Virus record (IMG/VR): IMGVR_UViG_3300030333_004505
Location: 4,233 to 29,290 of that record
Length of the DNA stretch: 25,058 nt
Origin: a virus
Direction: 5' to 3' (one strand)
Below the pieces are notes generated by a model, which did no database searches, was not told the DNA's origin, and worked only from the letters and a program-made list of their open reading frames with translations. Shown here one piece after another: positions 3,603-25,058 of this stretch. Both the position numbers and the translations under genes were made by a program. The stretch's first letter is position 1. Each line of letters opens with the position of its first letter.

Positions 3603-4572
3603 CTACTAATTCCGTTAATCTGTCAATTTGGACTTGTTGTTCTTTTATACTTTCTATAAGAACTGCTATTATCTTTTCATAATCAAGAGTTAGGTATCTT
3701 TTCCCAGTCTTATCCATTAAAGGCATACTCTTTTCTCGTACAACTTCTGGAAGTATATCTTGAACTTCTTGAGCAATAAGACCTAAATCTTTTTGCCCTT
3801 CCCTACTTCCTTTCTTCCAGAGATATTCAACACCTCTAAGTCTCTTAACTTTTTCTAGCGCTAGGTCTATGGTCTTAATATTGCCCTTAACTCTCTTATC
3901 TGATATTGTTGATGAATAAGCAATAACATCTGCGTCAGCGTGGAAATCCCCACCATTAGCAAACAAGAACTCATTAGCATTATTTACCATTACCTTTATA
4001 CCTTGACCGGGGTCTGCTGTGTCGTGAAAGAAACCATCATCTGCACCATCAAACTGAATACCCGGAGCAGTATTTGAGCCACCATCAACAACTAATACGC
4101 CATCTACAGTAGTATTGTTAAATGTAACATTAGAAGTAGTCGCAACTGCTTGACCTATACTAAAGGTTGTACTACTTAAAGTAACTCCAGTACCGGCACT
4201 ATATGTAGTATTAGTATCAGTAGGAGTAGCCCAAGTACCATCTTTCTTTAGAAAAGTACTACCAGAACCACCACCAAGATTTGACAAAGCGGCGCCACTT
4301 GATAAGCTAAATGTTGTTGAGCTAAGGGTTAGTCCAGTCCCAGCGGAGTAAGTAGTATTTGTATCTGTGATATCACAATTAAATGTTGTACCACTTAAAG
4401 ACATACCAGTCCCTGCTGAATAAGTAGTATTAGTATCTGAAGGGGTGGCCCAAGTTCCATCCTTTCTCAAGAATGTAGAACCACTGCCACCCCCTAAGTT
4501 TGCTAATGCTACCCCAGAAGGGAAGTCCGCTGAAGGACTCGATTCGTGTAGTACCTTTTTCCACGAAGCCAT
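3586..4572 (-). CDS. tail fibre with C-terminal S74 intramolecular chaperone
   Basis: A 328-residue fibre. Residues 1-18 (MASWKKVLHESSPSADFP) are nearly identical to the start of the other fibre gene here, so both probably attach to the same virion site. A shaft follows with repeats: NTTYSAGTG three times (about 48, 72 and 121) and LGGGSGSTFL-[RK]-KDGTWATP twice (about 26 and 99). Residues 224-328 form a Peptidase_S74 domain: S224-D-K-R-V-K229, LGLIAQEVQDILPEVV (263-278), YLTLDYEKIIAVLIESIKE (293-311) and a coiled-coil tail. In this family the domain trimerises the fibre and cuts itself off before the serine. The start is supported by GGAG eight bases before ATG 4572. Confidence 0.88.
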   Translation of the reverse strand: MASWKKVLHESSPSADFPSGVALANLGGGSGSTFLRKDGTWATPSDTNTTYSAGTGMSLSGTTFNCDITDTNTTYSAGTGLTLSSTTFSLSSGAALSNLGGGSGSTFLKKDGTWATPTDTNTTYSAGTGVTLSSTTFSIGQAVATTSNVTFNNTTVDGVLVVDGGSNTAPGIQFDGADDGFFHDTADPGQGIKVMVNNANEFLFANGGDFHADADVIAYSSTISDKRVKGNIKTIDLALEKVKRLRGVEYLWKKGSREGQKDLGLIAQEVQDILPEVVREKSMPLMDKTGKRYLTLDYEKIIAVLIESIKEQQVQIDRLTELVDVVNK

Positions 4573-22975: not shown

Positions 22976-22990
22976 TAAAACTTCTGAACC

Positions 22991-23066
22991 GAGCGAGTGT
23001 AGTCTTTGAAACAGTGGGTTCCTTTCCCTAGCTGTTGGGTTTGTCTGCACTCGCTCATCTTTTTTT
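22991..23066 (+). terminator. long terminator-type hairpin with T7 tract
   Basis: GAGCGAGTGTAG (22991-23002) pairs with CTGCACTCGCTC (23045-23056; 12 positions, one G-U), followed by ATC and seven T (23060-23066). Inside, AACAG-t-GGG (23010-23018) pairs with CCC-tag-CTGTT (23026-23036). The T tract fits intrinsic termination; the elaborate 42-base interior suggests that the hairpin also has another role. It ends the structured stretch that begins near 22760. Confidence 0.7.
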
Positions 23067-23113
23067 AATTTGCAATTACTTGCGATTTCAGGAAACTAGT
23101 GCAAACTAGATAG

Positions 23114-23138
23114 AGACCTAGGTAAAGCCTCTAGGTCT
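23114..23138 (+). ncRNA. hairpin AGACCTAG/CTAGGTCT
   Basis: An eight-pair stem with a nine-base loop (GTAAAGCCT). It lies between the long terminator and the next structured block; ACTAG occurs twice just upstream (23096 and 23105). It may be part of the leader of the following RNA. Confidence 0.4.
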
Positions 23139-23189
23139 GTACATACAATAAACTCCTAAGAGCAGGAGGTGAGTATGGCACAAGTGATT

Positions 23190-23266
23190 TAGGGGGAATT
23201 GAAGCCAGTCAGATATAAAACCGTCTGCGTGCAGAGAATTCTCTAGAAAGCCGGACATTCCCCCTA
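23190..23266 (+). ncRNA. RNA element closed by a perfect 10-pair stem
   Basis: TAGGGGGAAT (23190-23199) and ATTCCCCCTA (23257-23266) are perfectly complementary and enclose 57 bases containing TCTG-CGTG-CAGA (23224-23235) and the palindrome AGAGAATTCTCT (23233-23244). The size is like that of a tRNA, but the stem is ten pairs and no D- or T-arm is visible. Either strand could be used; orientation follows the neighbours. Confidence 0.5.
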
Positions 23267-23289
23267 TTAGCAATTCAAGATTTAATAAT

Positions 23290-23482
23290 ATGAGTGTAAA
23301 CTGCATATCGAAGGAGAACCTTTTAAAGATGATGTGCACTGACCTAAGGTGATACTTACCCAAAGCGGTGAAGAGAAAAGAAGTTGTGAACTGCAAGCAA
23401 CTCAAAGTACCGAAGGACTGTGGATGGAAGCAGATGGGAGGCGTAGTGAAATCTAGATGTAGTAACTACGGTTTACACTCAT
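23290..23482 (+). ncRNA. structured RNA closed by a perfect 12-pair stem, directly before a gene
   Basis: ATGAGTGTAAAC (23290-23301) pairs with GTTTACACTCAT (23471-23482) and encloses 169 bases. Stacked just inside is TGCATAT/ATGTGCA (23302-23338). Further inside are CGGT/ACCG (23366-23412) enclosing AGTTG/CAACT (23382-23402), and GTAGT/ACTAC (23443-23469), which stacks next to the closing arm. The total length, about 193 bases, and the place just before a ribosome binding site match the element at 21475-21663, but the sequences are not alike. A long minus-strand frame crosses it, most likely by chance. Confidence 0.6.
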
Positions 23483-23500
23483 TAATTAAAGGAGGTCAAT

Positions 23501-23797
23501 ATGATTGACAATTACCTTATGTTATTATTCTCAATGTTGAGTGTAGTAACAATAGTTTTCATAATATGGTTATCACGAAACCTTCTGGACGTATGCTACG
23601 AGAGGGATGAGTGGAGAGAAAGAGCAGTGGATACCAATGCCGCTCTCCAAGAGATGGAACAATTAAAATATTATGAAGATACGATAGCCCGTCATCGTGA
23701 TGATGGACTTCGTCCCTATAGGGCGTTGACTCAAGTAAACTGGGATAAGACTATGAAAGAGTCACATAGCACCCGAAACCCAAACCAAGGAGAATAG
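23501..23797 (+). CDS. 98-residue N-terminally anchored membrane protein
   Basis: Starts MIDNYLMLLFSMLSVVTIVF; one hydrophobic span at about residues 5-25, then a charged, probably coiled-coil stretch (YERDEWRERAVDTNAALQEM, EQLKYYEDTIARHRDDG), and a polar tail. AAAGGAGG lies five bases before ATG 23501. It heads a short operon with the beta-grasp protein, whose AAGGAG sits in its last codons. No family is recognised. The architecture (short N-terminus, span, coil) would place the coil in either the cytoplasm or periplasm depending on topology. Confidence 0.75.
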   Translation: MIDNYLMLLFSMLSVVTIVFIIWLSRNLLDVCYERDEWRERAVDTNAALQEMEQLKYYEDTIARHRDDGLRPYRALTQVNWDKTMKESHSTRNPNQGE

Positions 23798-23803
23798 GTA
23801 CCT

Positions 23804-24046
23804 ATGGCTAAAGTTTATGCGATATCTTTCCACTCAGGTGGTCAGGTACACGAACTGGAAGCAGATTCCCCCGCTGATATAGCGTCAGGCTGGGACTTAT
23901 CTCTGGAAGGTGTCGAAATTTTCGTTAACGAAGATAAGGCACAAGTAAGCACTGACCTTAGGGATGGTGATTATGTTTCCTTCCAAAGAGATAAAGTCAC
24001 ATCTGGCTCTGATTGCATCGTAGCGCTTGCGCTCGATAGTCAGTAG
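23804..24046 (+). CDS. small beta-grasp protein, ThiS/MoaD/ubiquitin-like candidate
   Basis: An 80-residue protein. The pattern is that of a compact beta-grasp fold: strand VYAISFH (4-10), strand VHELEAD (15-21), short helix SPADIASGW (22-30), then V37-EIFVNEDKAQVST, L52-RDGDYVSF (strand, turn, strand), and KVTSG (64-68). 'VN....V..D..L.DGD.V' before a KV-GG type end is typical of ThiS/MoaD-like and phage ubiquitin-like proteins. There is no terminal GG; SG at 67-68 is followed by a 12-residue tail (SDCIVALALDSQ). A conjugated form would therefore need trimming, or the protein may be non-conjugated. The next gene encodes an E2-like candidate. ATG 23804 has AAGGAG 11 bases upstream. Confidence 0.55.
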   Translation: MAKVYAISFHSGGQVHELEADSPADIASGWDLSLEGVEIFVNEDKAQVSTDLRDGDYVSFQRDKVTSGSDCIVALALDSQ

Positions 24047-24065
24047 GAGACTGTGATGGTTTCTC

Positions 24066-24093
24066 GGGGCTCGAATGTTCGGGCCCCAGTTTT
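24066..24093 (+). terminator. terminator or attenuator between the beta-grasp and E2-like genes
   Basis: GGGGCTCGAA-TG-TTCGGGCCCC (24066-24087) forms a stem of up to ten pairs with one G-U, followed by AGTTTTCTTCT. The T tract is short, so termination is probably partial. It begins 19 bases after the stop codon. Confidence 0.65.
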
Positions 24094-24120
24094 CTTCTAT
24101 CCAAAAAACAAGGAGTAATA

Positions 24121-25058
24121 AATGGATGCAGGGTTAAAAAGATGTCTAATGGAGGTATTTTATTGTCTTAAATCAATGGAAGGAGAGCAACGAGAGTTGC
24201 AATTCAAGTTGATAGAAGAGCAATTTGATATTGTCTATTGGCAAAATCGTGGTGATAAGAATAGTCCTTATATAAATGAGGATACAAAAGAAATTAATCC
24301 CTATTATAATTCTAGGGCTATCACCATAACTGAGGTTCCATACTTTATTGTAAAGTTTGCAAAACCTCAAGTACGGGGCAGAAGAAAAGTTACTTTTGCT
24401 GACCAGTACTCAATTATCACAGCAACAGGTGGTACAATGCCAAACATACGATGCAAAGAGAACACGGCTGTAGACACAGGAATGTTCGGTCAAAGTATCA
24501 GAGGTAGATATGGCGATGGGTGGGAAAGAGCATTACATCCTCATATTTCAGGAGCACAACCTTGCTTAGGTTCTTTTGAAAATATGATGTTCAAAGAGGT
24601 TCAAACAAATCCAGTAGGATTTCTGTCATTACTTGCTAAGTTTTATAGAACTTGGAATGTCGCCAGTGCATACTGGGATATCAATAGAATGACACCTCTT
24701 TACTCTAGACCTGATGAAGATGGAAATACCAAGATATTATTACCAGCTATAGTTTACGAAAGATACAAGCAGCACGGCGGCGTAAGAACTAGTACACTAC
24801 AGATGATACTTCCTCTTATAGACTATAAGAAAGTAAATCTTAATCAATATCTCAGGGCTATGGAGGTTGTAAGTCAATTAGACTATGGCTTTCCTGATGT
24901 AATGTATGGATACATACTTCCAGAGATTCAGAGAAGAGCTGGTACTATTGATTCTTACAAACCAATTTGGACAAAAGCACATTCAGCCATTAACAAGATA
25001 TCTAATGAAAGTTGGACATTTTATAGGCAAGATATAGTTGGAGACAAAAGAAGGTTGG
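24121..25058 (+). CDS. E2 ubiquitin-conjugating-like protein, 3' end outside the window
   Basis: An open frame from ATG 24121 (AAGGAG six bases upstream) to the right edge, 312 complete codons. It starts MDAGLKRCLMEVFYCLKSME. The key segment is L138-HPHISGAQPC148-L, which resembles the E2 signature HPN-[IV]-x(n)-C-L, in which the histidine-proline pair lies just before the catalytic cysteine. It is preceded by strands (YFIVKFAKPQVRG, KVTFADQYSIITATG) and followed by a helix (GFLSLLAKFYRTWNVASAYW). The cysteine is seven residues after the second histidine, eight in typical E2 enzymes. The third motif residue is H rather than N, as in prokaryotic and phage E2-like families. Residues after about 190 form a helical region of unknown function. 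The neighbouring beta-grasp protein strengthens the reading. Confidence 0.55.

Follow-up and report, generated by a model that had tools for sequence, protein, structure and literature searches.

A phage gene block predicted to encode a complete ubiquitin-like conjugation and deconjugation cascade

A gene block that starts in the 25,058-nucleotide stretch of viral DNA analysed here (the window) and runs on past its right edge most probably encodes a complete phage-borne cascade for conjugating and deconjugating a ubiquitin-like modifier, comprising the modifier (Ubl), an E2-like protein, a JAB peptidase and an E1. We favour this reading because the same genes recur in an unvarying order and key residues of their products are conserved; that no E3 was identified and that the E1 has only one domain count against it. 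An earlier reading of the sequence alone had proposed a phage-borne ubiquitin-like protein beside an E2-like protein, and this proposal is now supported by the conservation of the cysteine and HP pair in the E2-like protein, by E1 and JAB genes next to it, and by a UBC-like structure model.

Layout of the gene block

The window spans positions 4233–29290 of a 55,175-bp viral record. Virion genes in its left part (terminase, SU10-type capsid and a tail fibre with an S74 chaperone) run on the minus strand, and the Ubl–E2 pair forms the start of a rightward block. The window ends where the record has a 10-N scaffold gap (L003 2292–2301, where L003 position + 22767 = window position), which interrupts the E2 reading frame; this frame is open at the window end and contains no stop inside the window. 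The features of the block, all on the plus strand, are as follows.

23501–23797, plus strand: small predicted membrane protein, 98 amino acids, just 5′ of the Ubl gene (from the list of open reading frames)
23804–24046, plus strand: Ubl, a predicted beta-grasp modifier of 80 amino acids (open reading frame, structure model, profile and fold matches, Ser-Gly conservation)
24122–25058, plus strand: E2-like gene, of which 312 amino acids lie in the window; it crosses the 10-N gap and extends to L003 2769 (window 25536)
L003 2702–3499, outside the window, plus strand: JAB, 265 amino acids (Prok-JAB, PF14464)
L003 3459–4151, outside the window, plus strand: E1/ThiF, 230 amino acids (ThiF, PF00899)
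L003 4164–5030, outside the window, plus strand: AAA_24/Sak4-like ATPase (profile match)
L003 5036–5638, outside the window, plus strand: protein of 200 amino acids
L003 5651–7474, outside the window, plus strand: PriCT/DnaB primase-helicase (profile match)

Matches to single full-length genes of L006 and L009 show that the reading frame beyond the gap belongs to the E2 gene and encodes its C-terminal part. Past the window edge the same strand thus carries, in order, the remainder of the E2 gene, JAB, E1, the Sak4-like ATPase, the 200-residue protein and the primase-helicase. The sequence-only reading had called for a search for ThiF/E1 and JAB genes beyond 25058, and both turned up there, adjoining and in the same operon. 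Because stop/start overlaps join E2, JAB and E1, and only 75 bases separate the end of Ubl from the start of E2, the four genes resemble an operon. In this record the Ubl gene lies 6.2 kb and the E1 gene 8.7 kb from the terminase. Relatives of the 98-residue membrane protein were found at five other loci (phmmer, E ≤ 1e-3), and searches of Pfam and PHROG with it returned no match.

Several other features of the record were noted in passing. The record is a scaffold, and several short N gaps in L003 and L004 interrupt reading frames. The non-coding segment just 5′ of the operon (22990–23500) opens with a terminator-like hairpin and a T run and folds far better than its shuffles (z −3.7); it had no Rfam match and aligned poorly to the two nearest relatives. 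At 274–1053, on the minus strand, a protein without a Pfam match at E 0.01 contains the strings GNHDDW and YHGNH, which we take to be calcineurin-type phosphoesterase-like. Outside the window, L004 970–9990 (minus strand) encodes a protein of 3006 amino acids with the string GGADLDGDKAF, similar to the DxDGD motif found in RNA polymerases of the multisubunit type; crAss-like phages are known to have giant virion RNA polymerases. A 601-residue piece of this protein matched nothing among phage records or PDB chains.

The four predicted proteins

Both reading frames of the Ubl–E2 pair are present as first described, and the Ubl has 80 residues with Ser67-Gly68 (codons 24002–24007) and no GG. An AlphaFold2 model of the window Ubl (pLDDT 77) has the element order E-E-H-E-E-E and a disordered tail, and its fold matches include MoaD (Z 9.0 over 64 residues, rmsd 1.8), TtuB (Z 8.8) and SAMP1 (Z 7.8); a profile search matched SAMP2 and ThiS-like chains at E about 1e-3. 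As modelled, the Ubl is a MoaD/TtuB-like beta-grasp protein, with both the strand order and the glycine close to the end of the fold that characterize ubiquitin-like members. A Ser-Gly close to the C terminus occurs in all 58 distinct Ubl sequences, and in 47 of the 58 it is followed by 0, 1 or 2 residues; the window Ubl, with 12 residues behind Ser67-Gly68, has one of the longer tails. In cr106_1 (L244 677–1880), one of the crAss-like phages described below, a free 92-residue Ubl ending in KSG-KF is followed by an HNH endonuclease gene and then by a reading frame for the extension, so that the Ubl gene is split at the predicted processing site, two residues past Ser-Gly. The sequence-only reading had offered two explanations for the missing GG. 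The conservation of Ser-Gly, the short tails and the cr106_1 split favour the first, a precursor cut after Ser-Gly; the second, a decoy that is never conjugated, is disfavoured by a complete and conserved set of enzymes.

In the E2-like protein from 24122, H139-P140-H141 (codons 24536–24544) and C148 (24563–24565) are present as first read. Among 47 distinct sequences, the window protein included, 43 reach the alignment column, and every one of these 43 has HPH and the cysteine, which argues that the motif is not a chance occurrence. In an enlarged set of 89 distinct sequences of 380 or more amino acids (range 397–700), 86 contain HPH-x(5-8)-C-x-[GA], two have HSH, and one, at a contig edge, is without its N terminus; an HP-type motif before a catalytic-type cysteine, as in the E2 superfamily, is therefore found in 88 of 89 if HPH and HSH are both counted. 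Only H, P, H, C and G passed an 85% column filter, and there is no conserved histidine after the cysteine. The C-terminal part is long, helical and fast-evolving, with low model confidence and a mean column identity of 14% in alignment A1.

The fold was modelled for the nearest full-length relative, L009, rather than for the window protein, from 33 sequences. This model is confident only at about residues 20–60, 90–130 and 150–200, and its HPH (155–157) and cysteine (164) sit at the edge of a weak model loop. The sequence-only reading had made its E2 assignment depend on a UBC fold around the motif. In a structure comparison of residues 19–210, all 50 matches listed were UBC/E2, UEV or UFC1 chains (Z 4.6–6.8), the best covering 117 residues at rmsd 3.4 with a Z of 6.8, which is under 8; Foldseek alone gave no UBC match with E < 1. 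With moderate confidence we assign the E2-like protein a UBC-like fold, on the basis of this comparison at Z below 8 and of the motif. Profile databases contained no family match to it, a PDB profile search with the E2 and JAB alignments returned no relevant match, and neither Ubl nor E2 has a model in PADLOC, NCBIfam or PHROGs.

The two remaining enzymes both score above curated Pfam cut-offs. The JAB protein matches PF14464 at E 8.5e-6 (26.1 bits, cut-off 25), and Prok-JAB is the sole domain found in it. The JAMM arrangement E...H-x-H-x(10)-D, with a serine before the aspartate, is invariant in 27 of 27 aligned rows and conserved in all 98 JABs of the enlarged relative set. The E1 matches PF00899 at E 1.1e-13 (51.4 bits, curated cut-off 28.1), which places it in the ThiF/E1 superfamily. 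Its single domain contains an RNKDLIDQ stretch at the N terminus, the nucleotide-binding glycines and, within (P)C-T-x-K-H-T, the cysteine C179. We take this last sequence to resemble the catalytic-cysteine motif of eukaryotic E1s; C[TS]xKHT is found in 95 of 95 sequences, C179 being its cysteine in the window phage. The closest PDB entries to the E1 profile are the eukaryotic ubiquitin, SUMO and NEDD8 E1s, which are nearer than MoeB or ThiF.

Distribution, relatives and known systems

Because the E2 sequence varies too quickly for a peptide-pattern search (as sole query the window E2 matched no viral contig), we chose E1 and JAB as seeds. The E1 seed retrieved 65 viral contigs. A JAB profile retrieved 379 relatives, and the best 80 that we kept included 75 new loci; a few contigs were retrieved by both seeds, so the locus counts overlap slightly. 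Profiles built from the first set and applied to the second found all four genes in 53 of the 75 new loci. Across both sets, every locus with 4.2 kb or more of sequence upstream of E1 has all four genes (62 of 62, representing 46 distinct E1 sequences), and the order Ubl-E2-JAB-E1 holds in 88 of 88 loci with all four. The four genes remain open and their catalytic-type residues conserved while overall identity drops to 20–45%.

To judge whether the module is core or accessory we used terminase as the query, which makes the selection independent of the Ubl-E2-JAB-E1 module, and searched the 12 records of at least 35 kb among the best 80 of 443 terminase relatives. E1 and JAB were found in nine, and E2 and Ubl in eight; the E1-bearing record that lacks the latter two (G008) ends inside JAB. 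Judged by contig range and strand, G003, G004 and G012, the three records without E1, break off roughly 1.4, 0.8 and 4.2 kb upstream of the terminase, and thus, given the distances of Ubl and E1 from the terminase in the window's record, stop short of the module site. In another record (G007, 54,395 bp) one part of the E2 match lies at each end of the record, an arrangement that suggests a genome both complete and circularly permuted. With E1 in nine of the 12 terminase-chosen records and the other three ending before the locus, the module looks fixed, a core component of the window-phage lineage. The lineage probably consists of marine bacterial viruses; the IMG/VR sample names (JGI numbers) are, we presume, mostly marine. 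Genome contigs searched with the window JAB or E1 alignment yielded no relative, and hence no host or prophage, which is weak evidence of absence because the search needs short conserved peptides.

A tblastn search with E1 matched 74 phage records, all at less than 60% identity (29 Bacteroides, 29 Flavobacterium, 12 uncultured and 4 others). In ten phage regions examined, the order is Ubl (with an extension), E2-like, JAB and E1; a primase adjoins, as mostly do uracil-DNA glycosylase and exonuclease genes. By gene order and sequence, cultured crAss-like phages (crAss001 and DAC15; Steigviridae gp76–gp79) and Flavobacterium phages (Fpv homologues) appear to carry a divergent version of the same module, whose genes are annotated 'metalloprotease domain', 'thiamine biosynthesis protein' or 'ThiF family protein', and otherwise 'hypothetical'. 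We compared profiles by hhalign using eight of the ten regions, two being near-identical. JAB and E1 are homologous between the two phage groups (hhalign 99.9%), and at the level of sequence profiles this homology is certain. The E2-like proteins of the crAss-like and Flavobacterium phages went undetected by the window-lineage E2 profile and were aligned to it only by HMM–HMM comparison (E 3.5e-4, probability 37%), which placed HPH on HSH and Cys on Cys. The Ubl profiles gave no significant match (E 0.021, probability 2%), and a link between the two Ubls, not significant by profile, is suggested by position, the Ser-Gly boundary and a similar look: in 10 of 10 crAss-like and Flavobacterium Ubl proteins, [KRS]SG stands behind a beta-grasp-like part (crAss001 gp79 reads ...KKIKSG there, and the window Ubl has Val-Thr-Ser-Gly). 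The two groups thus share gene order, homologous JAB and E1, a [KRS]SG Ubl and an E2-like protein with HSH...C, and differ in having HSH in place of HPH and a long C-terminal Ubl extension.

We compared the phage system with four known ones. Type II CBASS, with Cap2 and Cap3, shares the E1, E2 and JAB chemistry, and the phage E1 weakly matches E1–E2 models. In CBASS, however, Cap2 is an E1–E2 fusion and the modifier is a CD-NTase, whereas in the phages E1 and E2 each have a gene of their own in all 88 loci with the four genes, a free Ubl is present, and no nucleotidyltransferase was found among the 10 proteins scanned at the locus. The PRTRC system, which we take to be type 6d of Iyer, likewise has Ub-like, JAB, E1 and E2 genes in one operon; PRTRC models scored far under their cut-offs on the phage proteins. 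In type 6d the E2 lacks the classical histidine (PMC1779556) and has one after the cysteine, and an additional alpha-helical protein is present; the phage HPH, in contrast, precedes the cysteine. TAPI and TAPK of lambda and T1 also pair a phage-encoded Ub-like domain with a JAB peptidase, but there the JAB occurs with NlpC/P60 in tail genes without E1 or E2 (PMC1779556), whereas the present genes form a stand-alone cascade beside replication genes, with both E1 and E2. In BilABCD, as here, a single operon encodes Ubl, E2, JAB and E1 as individual proteins. However, BilA has two Ub domains, BilB has the arrangement C..E..H..H downstream of the cysteine, and BilD has two adenylation domains (PMC11354881); the phage Ubl has a single domain of 80 residues, the phage E2 has its HPH upstream of the cysteine, and the phage E1 is a single domain of 230 residues. 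Bil is, moreover, a host gene set and Ubl-E2-JAB-E1 a phage one. The defining features tested set the phage system apart from Bil, CBASS and PRTRC and from the tail pair of lambda.

Possible mechanism and targets

In the cascade that we propose, JAB would trim the Ubl precursor after Ser-Gly, E1 would adenylate the terminal glycine and hold the Ubl as a thioester on C179, and E2, through C148 with HPH alongside, would accept the Ubl and transfer it to target proteins, from which JAB could remove it again. The variable C-terminal part of E2, together with a set of tail motifs, may set the place of action. Among possible places we lean towards the replication machinery of the host, where E2 and JAB would dock on the sliding clamp.

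This guess draws in part on short motifs in E2 and JAB (for example GQGTLFS and QVPLSF). Known clamp-binding motifs take the form Q-aliphatic-x-[LM][FL] or, as a hexapeptide, Q-aliphatic-x-[LM]-x-[FL], and some are located in C-terminal tails (PMC11139829). We tested a relaxed pattern, Q..[LIM](F|.[FL]), that had been noticed in the alignments beforehand, so that the test is post hoc. The 53 E2 tails were representatives with less than 80% identity over the last 30 residues, a set that left out reading frames below 100 amino acids, those cut by contig ends and the gap-cut window frame. Within these last 30 residues the motif is present in 36 of 53 tails (pentapeptide in 21, hexapeptide in 19) and missing from 17, against a mean of 2.7 and a maximum of 9 in 1000 runs of shuffling; it is present in 0 of 53 preceding 30-residue segments, 0 of 53 E2 first-30 segments and 0 of 54 E1 tails. 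The JAB linker (60–140 residues past the JAMM motif, a region chosen after viewing the alignment and absent from two of 65 JABs) contains the pentapeptide in 24 of 63 (shuffles: mean 1.0, maximum 4), compared with 0 of 63 in the region before the JAMM motif. Q-x-x-L-P-F is found in three of eight crAss-like or Flavobacterium JABs (crAss001 QGELPF, Kolpuevirus QEELPF and cr126_1 QNELPF), and the cr106_1 JAB has QTNLPF. Among other reading frames 21 of 194 match, which by listing position are 17 Sak4-like ATPases, two E2 fragments and two copies of the 200-residue protein. Near the C terminus of the Sak4-like ATPase, 17 representatives have LAQK, LRQK or LSQK followed by x-L-x-F/L (for example LAQK-x-LPF), a hexapeptide form.

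The motifs share Q, L/I/M and F with the clamp-binding motif and are loose at position 2, where many copies have G, S, T or A and the known motifs prefer an aliphatic residue (PMC11139829). In the window phage itself, the pattern matches the E2 tail QQQISF in its hexapeptide form alone and does not match the JAB sequence QTSFL. As a docking signal the pattern is suggestive only. By Pfam, the window's own record has no beta clamp (PF02767) and no PolA (PF00476), so a clamp partner would be the host's. Docking of E2 and JAB on a sliding clamp is possible, although we place it somewhat below even. We hold similarly tentatively that the tagged target would be the replisome or the clamp, a choice preferred because replication genes surround the module in both phage groups and because of the tail motifs. 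Taken as a whole, the scheme in which E2, JAB and perhaps the Sak4-like recombinase sit on the clamp, tag or untag the clamp or replisome proteins bound to it and thereby switch replication to the phage is one that we put forward with more doubt.

The same chemistry could instead tag a host defence or regulatory factor, for counter-defence or takeover, with the E2 and JAB motif binding a partner other than the clamp. The module stands among replication-type rather than virion genes, the rapid divergence of the E2 C-terminal part is what one would expect of a host-facing surface, and host Ubl defences are known, namely Bil and CBASS Cap2. We nevertheless consider this alternative somewhat unlikely: the module is found in every record that covers the locus, while counter-defence genes are usually patchy, and the tail motifs look like a known replication docking motif. 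Less likely again is conjugation of the Ubl to phage virion or assembly proteins during morphogenesis. The phage does have a large virion-type gene set, and the Bil defence targets phage tails by the same chemistry, but the operon accompanies replication genes in both the window lineage and the crAss-like phages, and a text search of the article on the structure of the crAss001 virion found no mention of gp76–gp79 in its main text (PMC10172136). Virion modification and opposition to a host defence had both been raised by the sequence-only reading; the gene neighbourhood and the tail motifs speak more for replication.

It is very unlikely that the Ubl serves as a sulphur carrier, its thiocarboxylate being used for nucleoside, tRNA or cofactor modification. 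The crAss-like annotation 'thiamine biosynthesis protein' implies such a role, the nearest fold matches of the Ubl, MoaD and TtuB, both serve sulphur transfer, and the E1 belongs to the ThiF superfamily. However, every complete locus encodes an E2-like protein with the conserved H-P/S-H and cysteine, and we know of no role for such a protein in sulphur-carrier pathways; moreover, no rhodanese or sulphurtransferase was found among the 10 neighbour proteins scanned, and the E1 profile lies closer to conjugating E1s than to MoeB or ThiF. A non-conjugated decoy or decaying remnant, which the absence of GG might suggest, is scarcely credible given the universal Ser-Gly and four open genes that keep their catalytic-type residues despite such low identity.

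Within the CC-licensed PubMed Central literature, the scope of our search, neither a phage Ubl-E2-JAB-E1 system nor ubiquitin in crAss-like phages is reported, and text searches of PMC6235969 and PMC10354031 gave 0 matches. What is known of ubiquitin-like conjugation in bacteria mainly concerns its use by the host as a weapon against phages, and a full Ubl-E2-JAB-E1 cascade as a fixed component of a phage would be the reverse of that picture. It would add a predicted E2 with an HP-type active site and a predicted modifier ending in Ser-Gly, and it gives a predicted role to genes labelled 'thiamine biosynthesis' and 'metalloprotease' in crAss-like phages that have been cultured. One of these, crAss001, grows on Bacteroides intestinalis, so that the prediction is directly testable. 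If docking on the clamp is true, ubiquitin-type modification would be linked to replication control in a bacterial virus. If the cascade is indeed tethered at the fork, it would be a prokaryotic counterpart of the control of PCNA by ubiquitin and SUMO, and one that belongs to the core gene set of a marine phage lineage and, as a diverged version, to that of crAss-like phages of the gut.
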